Of a stretch of DNA of 60,232 bases, positions 1,256-59,964 are shown piece by piece. Position numbers and translations under genes: made by a program. Position 1 is the stretch's first letter; every line of letters starts with the position of its first letter. This DNA comes from an uncultured Spartobacteria bacterium (GTDB taxonomy: Bacteria > Verrucomicrobiota > Verrucomicrobiia > Chthoniobacterales > Chthoniobacteraceae). Under the pieces are notes generated by a model. The model had not been told where the DNA came from, did not search any database, and saw only the letters and a program-made list of their open reading frames with translations. Location of the stretch: NCBI GenBank assembly GCA_903933715.1, contig CAIZLD010000075.1, positions 1-60,232 on the forward strand, written 5' to 3'.

Positions 1256-1317
1256 CCCTGCCATCGGCACCCAGTCGCAATTCGATGATATTGGGAAATC
1301 TGGAGCAGGAGAGAAAA

Positions 1318-1334
1318 TGGTGGAGGTTAGGGGA
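1318..1334. repeat. Distal attachment site (att, left end of island)
   Basis: TGGTGGAGGTTAGGGGA matches the last 17 bases of the tRNA-Ala gene (complement) base for base, beginning exactly at the CCA end; the match ends at 1335 and does not extend left of 1318. This is the displaced original tRNA 3' end expected after site-specific integration. Confidence 0.9.
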
Positions 1335-1386: not shown

Positions 1387-1407
1387 GGTGATGCTTGGTG
1401 TATCACC
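1387..1407. other. Short hairpin just inside the left island end
   Basis: GGTGAT (1387-1392) pairs with ATCACC (1402-1407) around a 9-base loop, downstream of the HNH gene stop. It lacks a run of T residues on the leftward side, so it is only a weak terminator candidate. The rest of 1335-1484 shows no gene. Confidence 0.35.
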
Positions 1408-1484
1408 TAAGTGTCTCACCAGTTCAAGCAGTTTCTTCATACAGCAGCATTCTTTTTGAGGCCAGCCCAGAAAGGCGTTCCAAA

Positions 1485-4904: not shown

Positions 4905-5597
4905 TCAACCTGCCTTGATTTTCCCGTCGCTTGTGCTGCGCCGTTTGAGAATATTCTGCACCGTCGTCGTCTGCCACGGTGCGCCGGTGCGAGTAGGGGC
5001 GCCTTGCCGGTTCAGTTCTTCCGCTATTTTGGCGAAGCTCATTTGCTTACCGGAGCGTTTACGGCGCAGGGAGCGCATGAGGGCGATAATCTCCTGTTCC
5101 CCCTCTTTTTCTCCAAAGGCTTTGCGCCCCTCGCATTTGCCGGTTTGCGCCTTCTTCGCTTCGCGGGCGCGGCGCAACTTGCCGACAAGGCGAGACTTCT
5201 CCAATTCGCTGAAAACGCTCTGAATCTGGATAAGCGCCTTTCGCATCGGGTCTTCGCTCATGGAAGCGGTGACATCCTCCCCGGTCACACAGTTAATGAG
5301 CGTAACGCCGTGCTGGGCGAGTTTGGCCAATAGGAGGGACTGAACCATCACGTCACGCGCCAAACGGTCAAGGGATTCCACAAGGATCGTCCGCACGCCA
5401 TTGCCAAGGATCATTCCCACCATGCGGTTGAACTCCGGCCTGTCAGCTTCCGTTCCGGTGAAAGCGTCTCGGAACGTCTCTTTCACGTAGTAGCCGTTTT
5501 CCGCTGCAAACTGAGCGATTGTCTCTCCCTGCCGGTCGAAACCATGCCCTTTGACTTGTCCTTTGCTTGAAACCCGCAAATAGGCGAAAGCCGGAAT
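4905..5597 (-). CDS. Serine recombinase (resolvase/invertase family) with non-standard start
   Basis: A serine site-specific recombinase of about 230 residues. The catalytic serine lies in YLRVSSKGQ, the conserved arginine block is LDRLARD, the long helix SELEKSRLVGKLRRAREAKK follows, and a C-terminal helix-turn-helix region (SFAKIAEELN..G..TRTG..W) resembles the 'recombinase' DNA-binding part. The family normally begins with a first strand of the form AFAYLRVS. Those codons are present, but no ATG, GTG or TTG precedes them before the TAA at 5610-5612; the only candidates are an ATT at 5595-5597 or a TTG at 5577-5579 that would delete most of the strand. The end given is the ATT. It may promote inversion, resolution or integration within the island; the gene may also be a decayed copy. 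Confidence 0.75.
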   Translation of the reverse strand: MPAFAYLRVSSKGQVKGHGFDRQGETIAQFAAENGYYVKETFRDAFTGTEADRPEFNRMVGMILGNGVRTILVESLDRLARDVMVQSLLLAKLAQHGVTLINCVTGEDVTASMSEDPMRKALIQIQSVFSELEKSRLVGKLRRAREAKKAQTGKCEGRKAFGEKEGEQEIIALMRSLRRKRSGKQMSFAKIAEELNRQGAPTRTGAPWQTTTVQNILKRRSTSDGKIKAG

Positions 5598-5680: not shown

Positions 5681-7222
5681 CTAAAGGGGAGAGATTCGCC
5701 GCCGCTTACGAACCACTCGATGCCGCACGCGGACCTTATTTCCCTCTGAGTTCAATCCCCCGTTCGCTTGCGGTGGGGCTGGCTTATTTTCCAAGACTGG
5801 AAAGCACCCCAGCTTCTTCAACTGCGCTACGGCGGAACGATACCGGTCGGCAATACGGTAAACCTTCTGATCTTCTACCATCCTAATGATCCCCTTTTCG
5901 CGCAGCGAATCGATGGCCCGTTGCCACGCATCCGGCCATTGCGCCATCGAAATGCACTGATTGTTAATGAGGAGAGAGGTGATCGGACGAGCTGCGTTCC
6001 GATAATTCTGGAGCGCCCATGCGATGTCTAGTAAGGCTTGATCGCTTGATACTGGGGAGGAAATAACCCGCGATTGCTCTGCAACATGGCGCAAAAATTT
6101 ATCCACCACCTTCGCAGCCCGCTCTCTCAACCGGTCAAGGAACGAAAGGACGCCGGCCTTTGAACTAAATGTGTGTTGGTTGCTCCGATGCGCCTCCCCA
6201 ATGCTGGCGTATTCTCGTGGAAATTGGAAACGTTCATCCCCTGTCAGGAGGTGGGTGACTTCAATCCGAATCCGGCGTTTGGTCTTGGCATAGATTTTCA
6301 GCCACTCGCCTATGGCTGTTTGGATTTCAAGGATCGGCATATCCCCGTCTATGCCGCTATTCACTGTGTCGTAAGTGCGCATTCCACGGTAGTTCCTTGA
6401 GAACGTCCGTATGTGCATTTCCAAATCCCGAACCAATCCGGTAGAATCTTCCGAAGCAAACTCCCAATAAGTCTCGACCTTTTTTACGTTGAATTTGAGC
6501 GCGTCGATTTTGCAATCGTTCCCTACTTGGCTACAAGCGCGCTTGAGTTCATTCCCCACGCTTTGCACGATCTTTTTCAGGTATCGGGAAAGGCCTTCCT
6601 GCCATTCCTCAGGCGTTGGAGTCACGCGATAAGTGCCGGATATTGGCAACCAGTTATCTTCTTTGTCATAAGAAGCCTCGTCAATGGAATGCGGACGGGC
6701 GTTTCGCTTCAAGATTCCCTTTGGCAAATTTTCGTCCTTCGGACGATGAAGCAAGAAGCGAGTTGGATTTATCGATAGGACCAATTTGCCGGTTAACTTC
6801 AAAGGCGTTAGCGGTTTGTCAGCATCTTCCTCTACCGTCCATTTACAAAACCCACTAAAGAGCGGGGGAGGAATAAGGGAGGGCGTTTCCTTGCCAGATT
6901 GCTCTATTTTAAGCGGTGTTTTGCGGATTTGGACAGTTCTCTCTGCATTCCATTTCCGGGTATCAATCGTGTTGAAAATCCACCCGTAATTAATGCCATG
7001 ATTTTGACGGGTTCGAGTGCGCTTATTCCCCTGATAGACCGGGGGAGGAGCCCCAAGATAATTTAGGATAGCATCGATTTCATCTGTGTTCGCTCCCCAT
7101 GCCTGGAATCCTTCGATTTCAATTTCTATCTTGTCCTGCTTCCCCTTTTCCTCAGTGATTCCACTCTGCGGTATAAATTCTGGTAGATAGGGGGGAGGTA
7201 ATTGCATTCTTCCTTTTTGCAT
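5681..7222 (-). CDS. Orphan 513-residue protein with basic, winged-helix-like C-terminus
   Basis: I do not recognise the family. The protein is soluble, without signal peptide or membrane segments. It has a proline-rich N-terminus, a central region with the block NYGWIFNTIDTRKW near residue 77, a helical middle with many charged residues, and a C-terminal part (about 430-480) whose pattern WQRAIDSLREKGIIRMVEDQ followed by KVYRIADRYR resembles a winged helix. The last 20 residues are strongly basic (RVRHRVVRKRRR). These traits fit a DNA-binding protein such as a replication initiator or regulator of the element, but this is inference. The start at 7222 has a purine-rich GAGGCAGGG upstream; a second ATG at 7207 is possible. 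One of the three island palindromes (7274-7295) lies 52 bases upstream, well placed as an operator. Confidence 0.7.
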   Translation of the reverse strand: MQKGRMQLPPPYLPEFIPQSGITEEKGKQDKIEIEIEGFQAWGANTDEIDAILNYLGAPPPVYQGNKRTRTRQNHGINYGWIFNTIDTRKWNAERTVQIRKTPLKIEQSGKETPSLIPPPLFSGFCKWTVEEDADKPLTPLKLTGKLVLSINPTRFLLHRPKDENLPKGILKRNARPHSIDEASYDKEDNWLPISGTYRVTPTPEEWQEGLSRYLKKIVQSVGNELKRACSQVGNDCKIDALKFNVKKVETYWEFASEDSTGLVRDLEMHIRTFSRNYRGMRTYDTVNSGIDGDMPILEIQTAIGEWLKIYAKTKRRIRIEVTHLLTGDERFQFPREYASIGEAHRSNQHTFSSKAGVLSFLDRLRERAAKVVDKFLRHVAEQSRVISSPVSSDQALLDIAWALQNYRNAARPITSLLINNQCISMAQWPDAWQRAIDSLREKGIIRMVEDQKVYRIADRYRSAVAQLKKLGCFPVLENKPAPPQANGGLNSEGNKVRVRHRVVRKRRRISPL

Positions 7223-7273: not shown

Positions 7274-7295
7274 TTTTTGCACCCGGTTGCAAAAA
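7274..7295. promoter_or_regulatory. Island palindrome 1 (TTTTTGCA-N6-TGCAAAAA)
   Basis: Perfect 8-base arms TTTTTGCA and TGCAAAAA flank the spacer CCCGGT. The site lies between the HTH gene and the orphan 513-residue gene, upstream of the latter. The same sequence with small changes occurs twice more at 9789-9810 and 9841-9862, so it is likely a binding site for a dimeric regulator or a replication protein of the island. Confidence 0.65.
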
Positions 7296-7337
7296 AAGTC
7301 CCGGGGGGGGAGGGTATTACAAACGGTGGAGTCCTAT

Positions 7338-7904
7338 TCAAGCACTCGCAGCCCGATCCCTGTCAGCTTCCACTACTTCTCGAAAAATCGTTTCGATGTC
7401 GCCGGGAGCAAACTCCGCTCTCAACTGGTCTAACGCATCACACCGTGGACAAACGGGGGTATCCAGTTCTCTCCCTTTCCGGCTCTGGACGCAACCAACC
7501 GCAATTTCGTATGCAGACTTTTGCCGAAGAATATCAGCGGCAAGCCTCAGAGCCCCCGTCCGCGCATACCCGGAGGACGCAAAGGCGGTATTTAGCGTCT
7601 CGGCATAGAGGCTTTGAAAATTTGCGAGATTCTCGGCAACGAGCCGGGATTCGTTGGGCGTGGAAAAGACCGTGGAAAAATCGGCGTGAATCTCCTTTAT
7701 TGCACGACATACCCATGCAGGATCACGCCCCATGATTTGCGCTATCTCTGCTTGCGTTTTGTTCCTGCAAACTAAATCCCAGAGGCGGCACAAATCCAAC
7801 CTCTTTTGATATTGCCGTGGAGTTATAGAGCGGGGGCGTTTGCTTGGCGTAACATGCGCCATCCCTTGCGTTGTGCAGTTACAGTTAGTGCCATGTGTAG
7901 ACAT
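7338..7904 (-). CDS. HTH protein with C-terminal CxxC, terminase-small-subunit-like
   Basis: A 188-residue soluble protein. Residues about 35-75 hold a helix-turn-helix typical of phage/island DNA-binding proteins: RLDLCRLWDLVCRNKTQAEI followed by AQIMGRDPAWVCRAIKEI. The middle is helical, and the C-terminal region has a single CPRCD pair near residue 153, possibly part of a metal site together with upstream cysteines. The organisation resembles small terminase subunits and other phage-type HTH proteins, but no large terminase is nearby. It may be the regulator that binds the island palindromes (inference). The ATG at 7904 is used; an ATG at 7862 is also possible. Its stop lies 115 bases from the orphan gene start. 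Confidence 0.65.
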   Translation of the reverse strand: MSTHGTNCNCTTQGMAHVTPSKRPRSITPRQYQKRLDLCRLWDLVCRNKTQAEIAQIMGRDPAWVCRAIKEIHADFSTVFSTPNESRLVAENLANFQSLYAETLNTAFASSGYARTGALRLAADILRQKSAYEIAVGCVQSRKGRELDTPVCPRCDALDQLRAEFAPGDIETIFREVVEADRDRAASA

Positions 7905-8015
7905 TTGAAAACCTTGATTTAAATTGCCTAATAATATAATGCAATCCCTTCCTCGTCAATGCCTTACATGCTTGATTCAGATGACATATTGGGTTTTATT
8001 CAAAAATCACCAAAG

Positions 8016-8858
8016 TCAATCTGCTATAAAAACAGTTTCAAATACAGGCATTCTCTTAACTAGCCCGGATACCGTTGTAAACTGCTGAAATCCAGTCAAC
8101 ACAATCGCCCGCTTTTCATCAAAAGCATTGGCATATACTTCCTTTAGTTCATCTTCCTCGCTATCATTGCCTTCCAATTTCTTATCTCTCGGCACAGCAA
8201 AATCCCAAAAAGCTCCTCGGAATTCCAATCTGTAATTCCGAACTGAATAAATAACGAAAGCCTCAGTAATTTGAACAACATTTGCATCCACCGCTTCACC
8301 CCTAAAAGCAAAACGCTTGCCGTCTTCTAGAGCGATCTCTCCCAAGTAGAGCCCCTCAACAAATTCGTTTAGGCTGGCAACTGGAGCATCAGCCCCAATG
8401 TCATCACGACACGAAAACACATATTTGAAATCGGATGTCTTGCGCATCACCGAAGCTGCAAGGCTTTTGGAATGTTTATTATTGGAATCCACTTGCTTGT
8501 TCCCTGTCGTTCTCGCATCAAGGACAAGCACCGCAAGAACGAGTAGCACCACACCTGCTATTGCAATCCTTTTCTTGCGCTCCTCCAATTTACATTTCCA
8601 AAAAAGCCATGAGGCAACCGGCGCGCCGAAAATAAAGGCAAGGCTTAGTGGCCTACCGTCGAAAGCCCAAACAACGAAAATGGTCAGAATTGCGGCAGTA
8701 ATTGCTTTCTTTAGCTTTTTAGGAAAAGCATTGCTTTGCCATAGGAGATAGAGGCCTAACGGCCAGATGAAAATAAGAGCTATAACTATTGGCCAGCGCC
8801 TATGCCGTTCGGGAACTTGAGGTTGTTCGGCGGGAGATGTGTTTTCAGTAGCATTCAT
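8016..8858 (-). CDS. Hypothetical membrane protein with soluble C-terminal domain
   Basis: A 280-residue protein of unknown function. The N-terminal 120 residues contain about four hydrophobic segments (WPIVIALIFIWPLGLYLLW; ITAAILTIFVVWAF; LSLAFIFGAPVASWLFW; IAIAGVVLLVLAVLVLDA). The C-terminal 150 residues are soluble and rich in beta-type patterns. It is the second gene of a pair: it starts 8 bases after the stop of the GYF-domain gene and has a clear AGGAG ribosome-binding site. The pairing of two membrane proteins suggests a joint role at the inner membrane, perhaps exclusion or sensing; nothing in the sequence defines it further. Confidence 0.65.
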   Translation of the reverse strand: MNATENTSPAEQPQVPERHRRWPIVIALIFIWPLGLYLLWQSNAFPKKLKKAITAAILTIFVVWAFDGRPLSLAFIFGAPVASWLFWKCKLEERKKRIAIAGVVLLVLAVLVLDARTTGNKQVDSNNKHSKSLAASVMRKTSDFKYVFSCRDDIGADAPVASLNEFVEGLYLGEIALEDGKRFAFRGEAVDANVVQITEAFVIYSVRNYRLEFRGAFWDFAVPRDKKLEGNDSEEDELKEVYANAFDEKRAIVLTGFQQFTTVSGLVKRMPVFETVFIAD

Positions 8859-8866
8859 TTAATCTC

Positions 8867-9544
8867 CTAATTCGTCTTTAGAAACCGATTTTCCCGAATG
8901 ATAATTCGCTTTTTGCAGGCTGGGCAATTTACGCCGGGCTCGTTGTGGCTAGCTTTAACTTCGGGATATGTGCAGTAGGGGCAACTTCCTGACAACCATG
9001 TTGGAGGCTTCACACAATAACCCAGTATTGGTGCCCCAAAGAACATAGCCACTGAGACCAGCATTAGTGGAATTCCGAGAATTGCTCCAATCCCAGTGAG
9101 CGAAAGAAGCAAACCTATAAAAAACGGCATAGAAGCCCCTGTTGATAGCAAACACCCAAAATTTAAGGCATTGGCTGCTCTGCTATCTGTATTCTGCGTT
9201 GCGGAGACTGATGATGCCAGTTCGACCACTCCTCGCCTTTTGACATGATGATCGTATCGTTCAGATATTTCGGCAGATTGCCTCAATTCGGTTCCGCCCG
9301 CTTCGGATATCCGGTTTGCCGCTGACGATGGAGACGAGGAAAATGGTTCCGGGACGACTTCGGAAAAGGGCTTCCAAAGGGTTTTCGCTTCTGGTGTCAC
9401 GAGCGTTCCCTGTTTAATCGTTCCCGCCACCGCAAGGCTTTTTAGTGTGTCAAAGGAAACCGGCCCAAATGGTTTTCCTTGTGCATTGGCGTAATACCAA
9501 CGATTCGGGGATGGCTCTTTTGGAGAAGAGGGAAATGTGCTCAT
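8867..9544 (-). CDS. GYF_2-domain membrane protein with C-terminal zinc ribbon
   Basis: A 225-residue protein. Residues about 14-63 match the bacterial GYF_2 domain (WYYANAQGKPFGPVSFDTL followed by LWKPFSEV), a peptide-binding module common in membrane proteins. A charged linker leads to two hydrophobic segments around residues 135-185, and the end is a zinc ribbon with two pairs, CPYC and CPAC, near residues 193-213. It is the first gene of a two-gene unit with the membrane protein at 8016-8858. A GGAAG sequence precedes the ATG at 9544. It is followed upstream by a 371-base non-coding region carrying two island palindromes, which may control it. Confidence 0.75.
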   Translation of the reverse strand: MSTFPSSPKEPSPNRWYYANAQGKPFGPVSFDTLKSLAVAGTIKQGTLVTPEAKTLWKPFSEVVPEPFSSSPSSAANRISEAGGTELRQSAEISERYDHHVKRRGVVELASSVSATQNTDSRAANALNFGCLLSTGASMPFFIGLLLSLTGIGAILGIPLMLVSVAMFFGAPILGYCVKPPTWLSGSCPYCTYPEVKASHNEPGVNCPACKKRIIIRENRFLKTN

Positions 9545-9788
9545 GTCTGTCTTTGGCTTCCTTGGTCAACTCAGCCCCCTTGCGATTTCCACAAGGAGGC
9601 CGGGAGTTAAGAAGCTGCAACAAGACAGCCGCGACGGCCTTTAACCGTGAGGTCTGGACATAACGCCGCCGCCCCCCGGCCATTTTTGATGGCTAGGAAG
9701 CGGCGTATTTGCTGCGGCATACGCCTGCCGCTTGTTGCGGGGTTCTTACGTCCCGGCTAGCTCTCGCCAGCTAAGGAAAACAGTCGCT

Positions 9789-9810
9789 ATTTTGCACCCG
9801 ATTGTAAAGG
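9789..9810. promoter_or_regulatory. Island palindrome 2 (degenerate copy)
   Basis: ATTTTGCA, spacer CCCGAT, TGTAAAGG: the same site as 7274-7295 with changes in the outer bases of both arms and one inside the right arm. It is 52 bases (about five helical turns) from copy 3, so the two could be occupied on one DNA face. Confidence 0.55.
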
Positions 9811-9840
9811 CGAATAAGGGGGGGAGGTGTGTAGGTCAAG

Positions 9841-9862
9841 TTTTTGCACCCAGTTGCAAAAA
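9841..9862. promoter_or_regulatory. Island palindrome 3 (TTTTTGCA-N6-TGCAAAAA)
   Basis: Perfect arms TTTTTGCA and TGCAAAAA around the spacer CCCAGT. It differs from copy 1 by a single base in the spacer. It lies between the integrase stop and the GYF gene. Confidence 0.65.
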
Positions 9863-9915: not shown

Positions 9916-11784
9916 TTATTTATCCCACTCTATGAGCCGCCGCACAGGCCGGTGCGCTTTGGTATAAAGGTGAGACAGGTTCAAGCCGGGGTATTGCGCC
10001 TTGCTGATTTCTTGCTTGAGAATTTGCACGTGTTTCGCCCGGCCATATTTGGCGCTCTGCCCCTGCCGGGCCCACCCTCCCATCATTTTTACCCACTCTT
10101 CGTTTGCTCCAGCATCGCGGAGAGCGGAGCGCCAACCATGCCGGAAGCTGTGAAATGTGGCTTCGGGTTTCGTTCCCAAGGTATGAACCAGAAAGTTGCT
10201 GAACCATTTACTGAAAACGTCGGAGTAGGAACCTGTTTTCTTGGCGGCTGGCAGTTCGGGAAAAAGTCGCGGCGAATTGGTATCCTGTCGCCGTTGCTCA
10301 AGGTATTCGGCAAATCCCATCTTCAAAAGTTCTGGGTGAACAGGGACGGTTCGCTTGCTTGCCGGTCGCTTAATCCGTTTATCGGATGCCCGTTCCCGCG
10401 TCTCCAGCGTGACCCTCACTTCAAACACAATTTCCCCTTCTTCCGTTTTTACATCTTGGGTGTAAAGCTGGCATATCTCGTTCAAGCGGAGCCCTTGATA
10501 CAATCCAATAAGCGGCACCCAAAATCTGCCGCGACGGATGATGTTTGGCCCAGGTATACGGTATCCTCGTTCATCGTTTTGGCAGCCAGTGTAAAGGGGG
10601 GCGCTGAATATTTGGGTTAATTCCTCTGCCGTGAATTCCACCGTGTTTTCGTCTTCGTCGCCCTGCTCCTCTTTTGGTGTAAAGCGTTGCTTGAGCCAGT
10701 AATCATCAAACGGATTTTCAAGAAGCAGCTTGGTTTGAACTGCATAGTCGAAAATCGAGAACATGTTGAAGAAGTAGTTCCGAAGTGTATTTGGAGCGAG
10801 CCGGTTGCTGTCTCCCTTTTTGTCGGCGTCCTCGATTGCTTGGAGCAATGATTTGCCTCGATAACGCTTCGTGGCATTGGATGGCAGCCGTTCAAGAAGA
10901 TCACAAAGCCGCTCTACCTCAGGACGACGAATTTCATCGAGCGGCGTGTCTTTCCCGAAAATGTCACAGAGCAATCGAGTATGCACTTGGTAAGCAAAAA
11001 GGGTTTTGGGGGCCAGCTTCGCTTTCTCTTGGTCTAGCAGGAATTGCTTGCAGAGCATTTCGACCGTCTTCACCATTATTTTAGATTTAACGGGAGTATG
11101 GGGAAAAATGTCTCTGAGCAGTGGATCGTAGCAACAGAAAGATTTGCCCTCCAATCGGTCACGTGTGCGCCGCAGATGTTCAACGGCTACCCGGCAAAGC
11201 AAGCCTTGCAATAGAGAGTATTCAGGGCTTTCTGCATCCAGCGTGAGGTGATTTTCGGAAAGAAAGCGTTTGATATGAAGATGCCCGTCATCTTTCTCCT
11301 CCATGTTGTCCGTATCGTCGCCGGTCAAGGCTGCCTCCTGAATCCAGAGGTCCGCGATAACGTCTCGCTGCTCGTTGCGATCCTTTTCCCCCCAGGTGTT
11401 TTGATACCGCTCCAGCGATTCCCGTTCTAACCGTATGAACCACATACGAGCGAGTTCTTGCGCGTGCGCTTCTGAGCGGATTTTCAGGAGGTGCGAACGG
11501 TGGCGAATTCGGCACGGAGTTACTGGGGCGGGGGGATTGATGCGGTTCCGCTCTGCTTCAAAAATGGCATTCGCCTTCTGGCTCTCTGCATTAATCATCC
11601 CGGCAGCTACTTTGGGATCAGATGTCTTGAGGGACCATTTGAGTTCCTTTTTGCCATCCAGTGCTTTTACCTTCCGCAGGTCTGCCGGAACCTTGGCACG
11701 CAAATAATAAACGGAGCCTCTGCGTTCGAGACGGGTGTGTCGGGTCACTTCGGAATTCTCTGGTGTATCAGTTTGGTGTCCCAT
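9916..11784 (-). CDS. int: Tyrosine recombinase, island integrase
   Basis: A 622-residue phage-type integrase. The N-terminus has the pattern RRGSVYYLRAKVPADLR seen in integrases with a DUF6538-type start, then a long helical arm-binding and core-binding region, and a C-terminal catalytic domain with the arginine in YQGLRLNEIC, the HxxR block HSFRHGWRSAL and a downstream tyrosine in GQSAKYGRAKH. The frame begins with TTG at 11796; the ATG at 11784 is preferred. It reads away from tRNA-Ala and lies in the same direction, 61 bases past the tRNA 3' end, so read-through from the tRNA promoter may drive it. It should catalyse integration and excision at the 17-base repeat. Confidence 0.92.
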   Translation of the reverse strand: MGHQTDTPENSEVTRHTRLERRGSVYYLRAKVPADLRKVKALDGKKELKWSLKTSDPKVAAGMINAESQKANAIFEAERNRINPPAPVTPCRIRHRSHLLKIRSEAHAQELARMWFIRLERESLERYQNTWGEKDRNEQRDVIADLWIQEAALTGDDTDNMEEKDDGHLHIKRFLSENHLTLDAESPEYSLLQGLLCRVAVEHLRRTRDRLEGKSFCCYDPLLRDIFPHTPVKSKIMVKTVEMLCKQFLLDQEKAKLAPKTLFAYQVHTRLLCDIFGKDTPLDEIRRPEVERLCDLLERLPSNATKRYRGKSLLQAIEDADKKGDSNRLAPNTLRNYFFNMFSIFDYAVQTKLLLENPFDDYWLKQRFTPKEEQGDEDENTVEFTAEELTQIFSAPLYTGCQNDERGYRIPGPNIIRRGRFWVPLIGLYQGLRLNEICQLYTQDVKTEEGEIVFEVRVTLETRERASDKRIKRPASKRTVPVHPELLKMGFAEYLEQRRQDTNSPRLFPELPAAKKTGSYSDVFSKWFSNFLVHTLGTKPEATFHSFRHGWRSALRDAGANEEWVKMMGGWARQGQSAKYGRAKHVQILKQEISKAQYPGLNLSHLYTKAHRPVRRLIEWDK

Positions 11785-11845
11785 AACGGTTTGCAACCGA
11801 CTGATTACCAGAGTGTTTCCTGAACCTCAACGACTTATATTGAAG

Positions 11846-11862
11846 TGGTGGAGGTTAGGGGA
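11846..11862. repeat. Proximal attachment site within the tRNA-Ala 3' end
   Basis: Second copy of TGGTGGAGGTTAGGGGA. It covers CCA, the discriminator A, the 3' acceptor strand and the first T-stem bases of the tRNA, a usual crossover region for tyrosine integrases that target tRNA genes. Confidence 0.9.
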
Positions 11863-11921
11863 TTCGAACCCCTGACCTTCTCATTGCGAACGAGACGCTC
11901 TACCAACTGAGCTAAACCCCC
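11846..11921 (-). tRNA. tRNA-Ala(CGC)
   Basis: A complete 76-base tRNA on the minus strand. The acceptor stem GGGGGTT pairs with AACCTCC, including the G3:U70 wobble that is the identity element for alanine. The D stem is GCTC/GAGC, the anticodon loop TTCGCAA gives anticodon CGC, the T stem is AGGGG/CCCCT around TTCGAAT, and CCA is encoded. It is intact because the island supplies the same 3' end. Confidence 0.95.
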
Positions 11922-57838: not shown

Positions 57839-59964
57839 AGCGATTTTTTCGGGGTTTCCTCCAGCTCGGCAGGCAGGTCAAAGACGCGTCCGTCATGGAT
57901 GGAACGGCGCAATTTAAGGTATTCCGCGTGCGCCCAGACGAGCGGCGTCGCGGAACCGGTGGGATGCCGGGTGTAGAGACCTTTTGCTGGAAGGTCCGCG
58001 GCATCCCAGATCTGCTCGGGAATGAGCCCCGATGCGTTCGCAAACGATTCCATGACGTGCATCAAGCGAATTGCTTCGTCCCGATTTCCAGCCGCGAGTT
58101 CATAATGAGCCCGCTCCCCCACAAGCAGGGGCCAAGGCCGGCCGAATCCGTTCGAGTCGTCACGGAACGGCTCCCCGGTCTCGCTCTCCCCGTATCCGTC
58201 GCCGATAAATCGCCTCCAGCACGGCCCTGTTTCCGTCTCGACGCGCAGTGTGGCATCAATAGCTTTGAGCGTATTTAAAATGCGGGGATCATCGGGGGCG
58301 CGAAGTCCGAATCGCACCAATGCCAACGCATCCGGGCTGACGATTTCGCCCGCCAACGGCGCCCCTTCTCCGGTCCAGTGCCGTACGGGAACGGGGCGTT
58401 GCGCCGGCAAAACATCGGAAGGCTCGGTGGGGATGATGAAGGCATAGTAACCCTCCACGCCCACTTTGCGGGCCAAGGCGGTGTCCCGGACGTACATCCA
58501 GTCGTCGAGTTTTGAGTCCCACTCCAATGCGACCCGCTGCGCCGTTTCGGCAAACTCCTTTTCGTTGATCGCCGCCGCATAGCTGGCCGCCGCCTTGATC
58601 GCGCTGATTTCCACAGCCAATGAAAACACGGAGTAACCTGAAAATTGTTCCCATCGATCCAAAGGGGTCAGCGGTCCATGCCGGAGGAGGTAGAGGACCG
58701 CTTTGTGGATGGTCGGCCAGAACCTTGCAAGCTGGCCCGCGTCAAGCGTCTTGCTCCGGGCTGCCGTTAACGCCAGGAGAATCGGGAATCCAATCTCGTC
58801 CATCTGGATGGCTTTCCAATGCGAACGCCCATCCACATACATGTTTTGAGCCCAGTGACCATCCGGTTCCTGGGTCGCATGCAAAAAAGTCAAAACGCGC
58901 CGCGCCCGGCCATGCGCTCCGACCGCGATCAACCCGCCGATTGACTCGATCAGATCCCGCGTCCAAACCATATGGTAACCGGCTTCGCCATCCCCGCGAT
59001 ACTCGCCCCAAGGGGTGCTGAGGCTGGCCACCATCGCGCCGGGATATTCCTTGGCTTCATGAATTCGTAAAACCGCCGCGCTCACCTTTGCAGGCGTATC
59101 ATCGCCCAGGGCGTCGTCGTTCGGGAATTCAAGCGTCCGAAGCCATCCCTGCCATTTCCCTGAGTATTTCCGAAACCGGTCATCGAAACCGTCTAGCAAG
59201 CTCGCAAGCACATGATGAGCCGCGCCCGCGAAGCTCGTCCCAAAGCCGACCGCGATTACGAAACTCATATCGTGGGCGGTATCAAGCTCCGCCGTGAGCG
59301 CCACGTTGCCATCCGGAGCCGCGTCGTATTCCCATTCCATCCGGCGATGCTGGGATACGTCCTGCCAGCCGTCAGAAGTTCCACAGTAACCCACCGACCT
59401 TTTTATAAAAGGGACCGAGCACCCGATGGCGAGAACGTTGGGACCATCGATTCCGGTATTGCGCGCGAAAAGCATCGGCTCCCCCTTGAACCCCTGCACC
59501 CAGGCATGGTTGCCCCATCCTCGGTTGCAAAGGTGCGGCGCAACCAAAAGATAGAGCCTCGGCTCATCCAGCTCAAAAGGAACCAAACGGACTTTGATGA
59601 GGAGAACACTGCGATCCGGATCGGCAATAATTTCTTGCTCAATATGATAGCGCCCCTGCTTGCAACGGTTCTCCATGCGGTAGGCGGGCAGCCCCGGGGC
59701 ATGCGCCTTCACATCGCAAATGGTATCGCGCCGCTGATCGGAAAAAAAACCCCGCCGGTCGGTTACCATGAACTGGAGATCGCGAATCGCCGGGGTATCC
59801 AGTTGCGGGAAAAAGATTTCGGAGACGATCCCTTCGGACATCGTGAACCAGACCCGGCTGCCGTGGCTCATGGCAGTCCCGACCCCTGTTTTCGAACTAC
59901 TGCTCCAAGTCGGAGGAGAACCCGGGTGTCCCGGGGCAATGCGAGCCTGTGTTAATTGGGGCAT
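57835..59964 (-). CDS. Glycoside hydrolase family 15 (glucoamylase-type)
   Basis: A 709-residue enzyme that releases glucose from glucan ends. The N-terminal beta-domain starts with APGHPGSPPTWSSSSKTGVG and FPQLDTPAIRDLQF, the catalytic (alpha/alpha)6 domain has YHMVWTRDLIESIGGLI with the acid region, SNGFGRPWPLLVGERAHYEL and the base in GLIPEQIWDAADLP. No signal peptide, so it acts in the cytoplasm. Its stop overlaps the FAD oxidoreductase stop by 4 bases (TTAG). Confidence 0.93.
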   Translation of the reverse strand: MPQLTQARIAPGHPGSPPTWSSSSKTGVGTAMSHGSRVWFTMSEGIVSEIFFPQLDTPAIRDLQFMVTDRRGFFSDQRRDTICDVKAHAPGLPAYRMENRCKQGRYHIEQEIIADPDRSVLLIKVRLVPFELDEPRLYLLVAPHLCNRGWGNHAWVQGFKGEPMLFARNTGIDGPNVLAIGCSVPFIKRSVGYCGTSDGWQDVSQHRRMEWEYDAAPDGNVALTAELDTAHDMSFVIAVGFGTSFAGAAHHVLASLLDGFDDRFRKYSGKWQGWLRTLEFPNDDALGDDTPAKVSAAVLRIHEAKEYPGAMVASLSTPWGEYRGDGEAGYHMVWTRDLIESIGGLIAVGAHGRARRVLTFLHATQEPDGHWAQNMYVDGRSHWKAIQMDEIGFPILLALTAARSKTLDAGQLARFWPTIHKAVLYLLRHGPLTPLDRWEQFSGYSVFSLAVEISAIKAAASYAAAINEKEFAETAQRVALEWDSKLDDWMYVRDTALARKVGVEGYYAFIIPTEPSDVLPAQRPVPVRHWTGEGAPLAGEIVSPDALALVRFGLRAPDDPRILNTLKAIDATLRVETETGPCWRRFIGDGYGESETGEPFRDDSNGFGRPWPLLVGERAHYELAAGNRDEAIRLMHVMESFANASGLIPEQIWDAADLPAKGLYTRHPTGSATPLVWAHAEYLKLRRSIHDGRVFDLPAELEETPKKSL

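Follow-up and report, generated by a model that had tools for sequence, protein, structure and literature searches.

Palindromic operators read by the regulators of mobile islands are already a known kind of control element, and the closest described systems are the following. The SaPI/PICI islands, governed by the master repressor Stl, are compact elements integrated at a tRNA or att site that carry their own integrase and their own operator words; SaPI operators lie at the divergent str/stl promoter. Autoregulated plasmid replicons have inverted-repeat operators for Rep, and in many replicons one protein both initiates replication and shuts off its own gene. MarR/PadR-type winged-helix regulators also bind palindromic operators.

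The window analysed here (a 60,232-nt stretch of DNA from an uncultured Spartobacteria bacterium) contains an island that resembles each of these systems in part (Table 1). It spans ~10.5 kb at a tRNA-Ala gene, and its integrase gene (int) lies beside a tRNA whose 3' end recurs at the other end of the island, as in other tyrosine-integrase genomic islands. Reading along the - strand, the integrase is followed by sites A and B and a structured RNA; next come genes for a GYF-domain protein, a membrane-like protein and a helix-turn-helix (HTH) protein. Beyond site C lie a 513-aa orphan, genes for a serine resolvase, a DNA methylase and an AAA ATPase, and one more gene. The compact tRNA-linked layout, the integrase and the island's own operator words recall SaPI/PICI islands. 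However, the island has no recognised Stl-type repressor, its operators lie before the candidate binder itself and where int ends rather than at a divergent str/stl promoter, and no packaging, terminase or capsid-interference genes were found among nine island proteins scanned, nor among five compared with PHROGs. As in plasmid replicons, a palindrome lies in the promoter region of the putative binder and further copies lie elsewhere, but no recognisable Rep domain was found and a check for an iteron-type replicon found no direct-repeat array, only dispersed palindromes with one pair 52 bp apart. The likeness to MarR/PadR regulators lies in the palindromic operators and in a weak match of the orphan's C-terminus to a winged helix, whereas the orphan is ~500 aa long and its conserved middle, with the motif LKIYAKTNRRIRFEV, matched no known family.

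Table 1. Positions of the features discussed, in the window and in related islands
Feature	Locus	Position	Strand	Remarks
att repeat, second copy, left end	window	1315..1334	.	19/20 identical
likely arm-type repeat, left end	window	1396..1418	.	TGGTGTATCACCTAAGTGTCTCA; matches right-end repeat
serine resolvase-type protein	window	4905..5579	-	encoded in the island
513-aa orphan	window	5681..7222	-	best candidate binder; possible C-terminal winged helix
site C	window	7274..7295	.	TTTTTGCACCCGGTTGCAAAAA; between HTH gene end and orphan ATG
188-aa HTH protein	window	7338..7904	-	second candidate binder; homologues in only 3 of 384 class genomes plus L070
conserved structured RNA element	window	9572..9782 (model core 9602-9754)	-	between int and next gene
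site B	window	9789..9810	.	ATTTTGCACCCGATTGTAAAGG; degenerate copy; just before structured RNA element (- strand)
site A	window	9841..9862	.	TTTTTGCACCCAGTTGCAAAAA; 54 bp past integrase stop
tyrosine recombinase (int)	window	9916..11796	-	DUF6538 + Phage_integrase; 626 aa from TTG, ATG at 11784
likely arm-type direct repeat, right end	window	11761..11783	.	TGGTGTATCAGTTTGGTGTCCCA
half-site-like word	window	11787..11799	.	CGGTTTGCAACCG; overlaps alternative TTG start of int; weak
att repeat, right end	window	11843..11862	.	3' end of tRNA-Ala
tRNA-Ala (CGC)	window	11846..11921	-	integration target
pre-orphan word	L013			GTGCAGCAAGCTGCAC
pre-orphan word	L014			TTGCACATGTGTTCAA
pre-orphan word	L065, L066, L067, L072			TTGAACACATGTGCGA; imperfect palindrome
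pre-orphan word	L068			GTGCACCGCAGTGCAC
pre-orphan word	L070			TTGAAATCGTTTGCAA
pre-orphan word	L071			TTGCAACCGGTTGCAA
RNA copy	L013	11549-11710		
RNA copy	L014	11031-11177		
RNA copy	L015	14383-14534		
RNA copy	L020	6093-6249		
RNA copy	L065	2914-3058		
RNA copy	L066	4782-4929		
RNA copy	L067	6776-6922		
RNA copy	L069	12130-12289		
RNA copy	L070	5499-5643		
RNA copy	L071	14316-14471		
RNA copy	L072	7321-7466		

Sites C and A are exact palindromes with an 8-6-8 layout, and the near edge of site C lies 51 bp before the orphan ATG at 7222. The first-pass annotation had counted three copies of this inverted repeat; C and A bear this out exactly, but the third copy was overstated, as neither arm of site B is perfect. 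Site B (ATTTTGCACCCGATTGTAAAGG) is 77% identical to site C, and because its core differs at only 2/18 positions from site C and 3/18 from site A, it is a real degenerate copy. The 52-base gap given for the last two sites is correct as a start-to-start spacing (9789 to 9841). A related word said to precede the integrase ATG does lie 3 bp before it but is a single half-site only, and the 10-mer TTTGCAACCG within it has three occurrences in the window, one of which, at 59522, is outside the island. The expectation that a genome-wide motif search would show the sites to be specific to the island held up for the exact word, whose two occurrences in the 2.8-Mb genome both lie in the island, with none in a reversed control. 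A degenerate 22-mer with up to three mismatches gave no further genome match beyond the window sites. Palindromes of this grade within the island are restricted to sites C and A, where random sequence would be expected to hold 0.33. A scan of the window with three mismatches allowed returned 2 matches against 0.55 expected, and such a window-only count is weaker evidence than the exact genome-wide count.

Several smaller features lie near these sites. The word GCACCCAGTCGCAA at window positions 1267-1280, 35 bp outside the left att, has 4/18 mismatches to the site core and may be due to chance. C-tracts (CCTCCCCCCC, - strand) occur at 7300-7320 and 9815-9830, ~7-14 bases before sites C and B. 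A promoter scan detected none at the palindromic sites; nor did it return a candidate promoter, TTGACC-17-TATTCG, that had been noticed by eye between A and B. We rejected an intrinsic terminator as the role of the palindromes: a terminator scan did not report them, the A/T-rich stem lacks a following T run, and one site copy lies within a coding gene. The TGGTGTATCA-type direct repeats ~60 bp inside both island ends are likely the arm sites of the DUF6538 integrase, and these putative arm repeats (TGGTGT...) differ from the palindromes. Similar TGATACATCA repeats occur in the att neighbourhood of a related island, L071.

The orphan has ~16 relatives in other Verrucomicrobiota, most of them next to an integrase of the same type in a compact island. 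Homologues were found in 7 of the 384 class genomes and in 13 of 68 genomes from one family, with three genomes counted in both sets, and they typically follow a DUF6538-type integrase at a distance of 2-5 kb in the same orientation; none were found in plasmids, phages or viral contigs. In ten islands (the window, L013, L014, L065, L066, L067, L068, L070, L071 and L072), a palindrome of 16-18 bp with the layout ~TTGMA-N6-TKCAA lies 30-105 bp before the orphan. The place recurs and the letters vary among islands, including the two that share a single genome: G420 carries TTGAACACATGTGCGA in L067 and TTGCAACCGGTTGCAA in L071. The latter island shares only int and the orphan with the window, yet has nearly the window's word. 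Elsewhere the arrangement is different, with GTGCAAACGTTTTCAC inside the first part of the orphan gene in L015, sites behind the orphan in L011 and L012, and no clear palindrome before it in L069, L073 and L074. The window, L013 and L070 each have a second site directly following int, and L071 has one within int; in the L014 group the matches within int fall at a conserved peptide and may be a coding coincidence. Just before the orphan, L073 and L074 have TTGCAACCGGGTTGG, with 12 bases in common with site C, and this word sits in a hairpin-like CCAACCCGG...CCGGGTTGG repeat.

The recurrence of a palindrome before the orphan was also assessed with no preset motif. When the 100 bp before the orphan were searched for repeated palindromes and compared with random windows of the same islands, the Fisher p was 5.6e-4 with the window and L013 (the islands that suggested the idea) left out, and 3e-3 with L014 left out as well. 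Further copies within the locus (<=2/18 mismatches) were found for 7 of the 10 sites versus 28 of 3000 random 18-mers (1%), although four of these seven loci form one related group; L014, L065-L067 and L072 are close relatives, and several loci that had helped to reveal the pattern were also among those counted. At seven loci with the structured RNA but without the orphan, the palindrome pattern matched once in ~110 kb, which fits chance. Site similarity correlates with orphan identity (r 0.43-0.54, p ~0.005 or lower) and equally with int identity (r 0.52). The co-divergence test thus does not name the binder.

We consider it marginally on the side of probable that the palindromes serve as operators for a DNA-binding protein encoded in the island, the 513-aa orphan itself being the best candidate. 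That the words differ between islands, and that 7 of 10 have further copies compared with 1% of random words, suggests that the binder is most likely encoded by the island; the two words in G420 make a host factor an unlikely reader. The orphan is preferred because it lies behind the most constant site, is present in many islands that have the palindrome but no homologue of the HTH protein, and has a C-terminus weakly resembling a winged helix. This last resemblance comes from residues 429-470 of the orphan consensus (HTH_27, E 0.018; PadR, 0.1; AdcR, 0.18), values that are below any cut-off, and a single-sequence structure model of the orphan was unusable (pLDDT 33). As would be expected of an autoregulatory operator, the site in the orphan's promoter region recurs in its relatives, with the orphan as the putative regulator. 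Standing against the orphan is G316, a congener (Spartobacteria UBA695) that has a perfect palindrome and an HTH homologue but no orphan; it may represent a decayed relative, because a DUF6538 fragment and the RNA element are present.

Hypothetically, such a switch would work as follows. Each palindrome would be bound by a dimer through its two half-sites (~TTTTGCA(A/C)CC). Bound at site C, the protein would sit in the orphan's own promoter region and control orphan synthesis, presumably by repression. Sites A and B, which are separated by five helical turns, would place it in the gap from the int end to the structured-RNA gene, and there it could block or loop the start of this RNA and of the genes that follow. 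In this way the amount of a single protein would govern the excision or maintenance functions of the island.

The 188-aa HTH protein is an unlikely alternative, in which the sites would be its operators in front of both the orphan and the RNA. The HTH gene immediately precedes site C, and the protein was suspected first because its family is rare and is present in G316 beside a perfect site. Among the 384 class genomes, the exact pattern occurs in the window's genome, in G316 and in three genomes of one other genus; the spacers of those three do not match, so that a matching spacer is confined to the window's genome and G316, both of which encode this HTH family. In G316 the perfect form TTTTTGCAACCGGTTGCAAAAA lies within a XerC-like gene directly after the HTH homologue (45% identity to the window's protein), 0.8 kb behind the HTH gene. 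In addition, L015 and L070 encode HTH proteins that are 63% identical and have sites similar at 13/16 positions. However, homologues were found in only 3 of the 384 class genomes and one further island (L070), and the protein fits only four islands. L013, L014, L065-L068, L071 and L072 have palindromes at the same place with no homologue in the stretch examined, L071 carrying almost the window's word. We therefore rejected the HTH protein as the sole binder, as it is absent from most islands that carry palindromes. Its relatives were restricted to G316 in the genome_contigs set, with none in the viral contigs or plasmids searched, and its structure model was only fair (pLDDT 58.6). The G316 palindrome (L020, 9367-9388) falls in the coding sequence of the XerC-like recombinase, a 336-aa protein, where it encodes IFATGCK. 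Two exact-pattern matches in viral contigs, one of them in a phage tape-measure-like gene, were read as chance.

The first-pass annotation had proposed operators of a regulator or binding sites of a replication protein. This was right as to the class of element, but a regulator and a replication initiator are not separable here. We regard it as rather improbable that the sites are origin or copy-control sites at which the orphan starts replication of the excised circle and shuts off its own gene. Points in favour of such an initiator are the compactness of the islands, in which int marks one end and the orphan lies close to the opposite one, the several dispersed copies of the site and the economy of one protein serving both roles. 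The absence of an iteron array speaks against it, as does the fact that the orphan matched no replication family in Pfam, NCBIfam, PHROGs or PDB sequences. A resemblance of the orphan to filamentous-phage gpII was considered, but searches with single sequences, which are a weak test, found no kinship to gpII or to the replication proteins of filamentous phages.

That the palindromes are accessory or core sites of a tyrosine recombinase is very improbable. Their 8-6-8 layout is reminiscent of such sites, copies lie beside or within int in several islands and within a recombinase gene in G316, and site similarity tracks int identity too. However, the att core is the tRNA end repeat, with separate TGRNACACCA-type repeats beside att, and the most constant site position is the orphan promoter, far from att. 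A host regulator site or chance repeats, for which the modest window-only count at three mismatches might speak, is hardly credible against the genome-wide uniqueness of the exact word, the different words in two islands of one genome and the 7/10 versus 1% repeat rate.

With the orphan as the preferred reader, we tentatively propose, as a possibility that is still doubtful, a so far undescribed family of small Verrucomicrobiota islands run by a new class of ~500-aa self-regulating DNA-binding proteins with fast-changing palindromic words, coupled through the int-side sites to a new structured RNA, so that each island would have a private control code. The other words at matching places in related islands suggest switches read by a protein that each island carries. 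Because reader protein and word seem to change together, even within one genome, two islands could coexist in one cell without cross-talk. The libraries searched held no family for the orphan, the fast-changing words or the adjoining RNA, and the titles and abstracts in the literature searched describe no such system. The sites offer a concrete handle on self-control in a poorly studied group of mobile islands, and through them the orphan family and the adjoining RNA, neither of which has a recognised function, become directly testable.

The structured RNA itself is ~150-200 nt long and lies shortly after int. Its model has 52 pairs, 28 of them with compensatory changes, and none of 500 shuffles was as good. 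A covariance model found the RNA in 13 of 315 class genomes, with up to five copies per genome, and an Rfam search of the element returned no family at its cut-off. One Rfam match in the window, to sRNA-Xcc1 (37.8 bits, cut-off 53), was treated as chance because it is absent from four other islands. The window's genome also holds a second copy of the RNA (contig C58:1523-1675, L101), which has neither orphan nor palindrome at its locus; it follows a recombinase-like gene and precedes a GYF-like gene.
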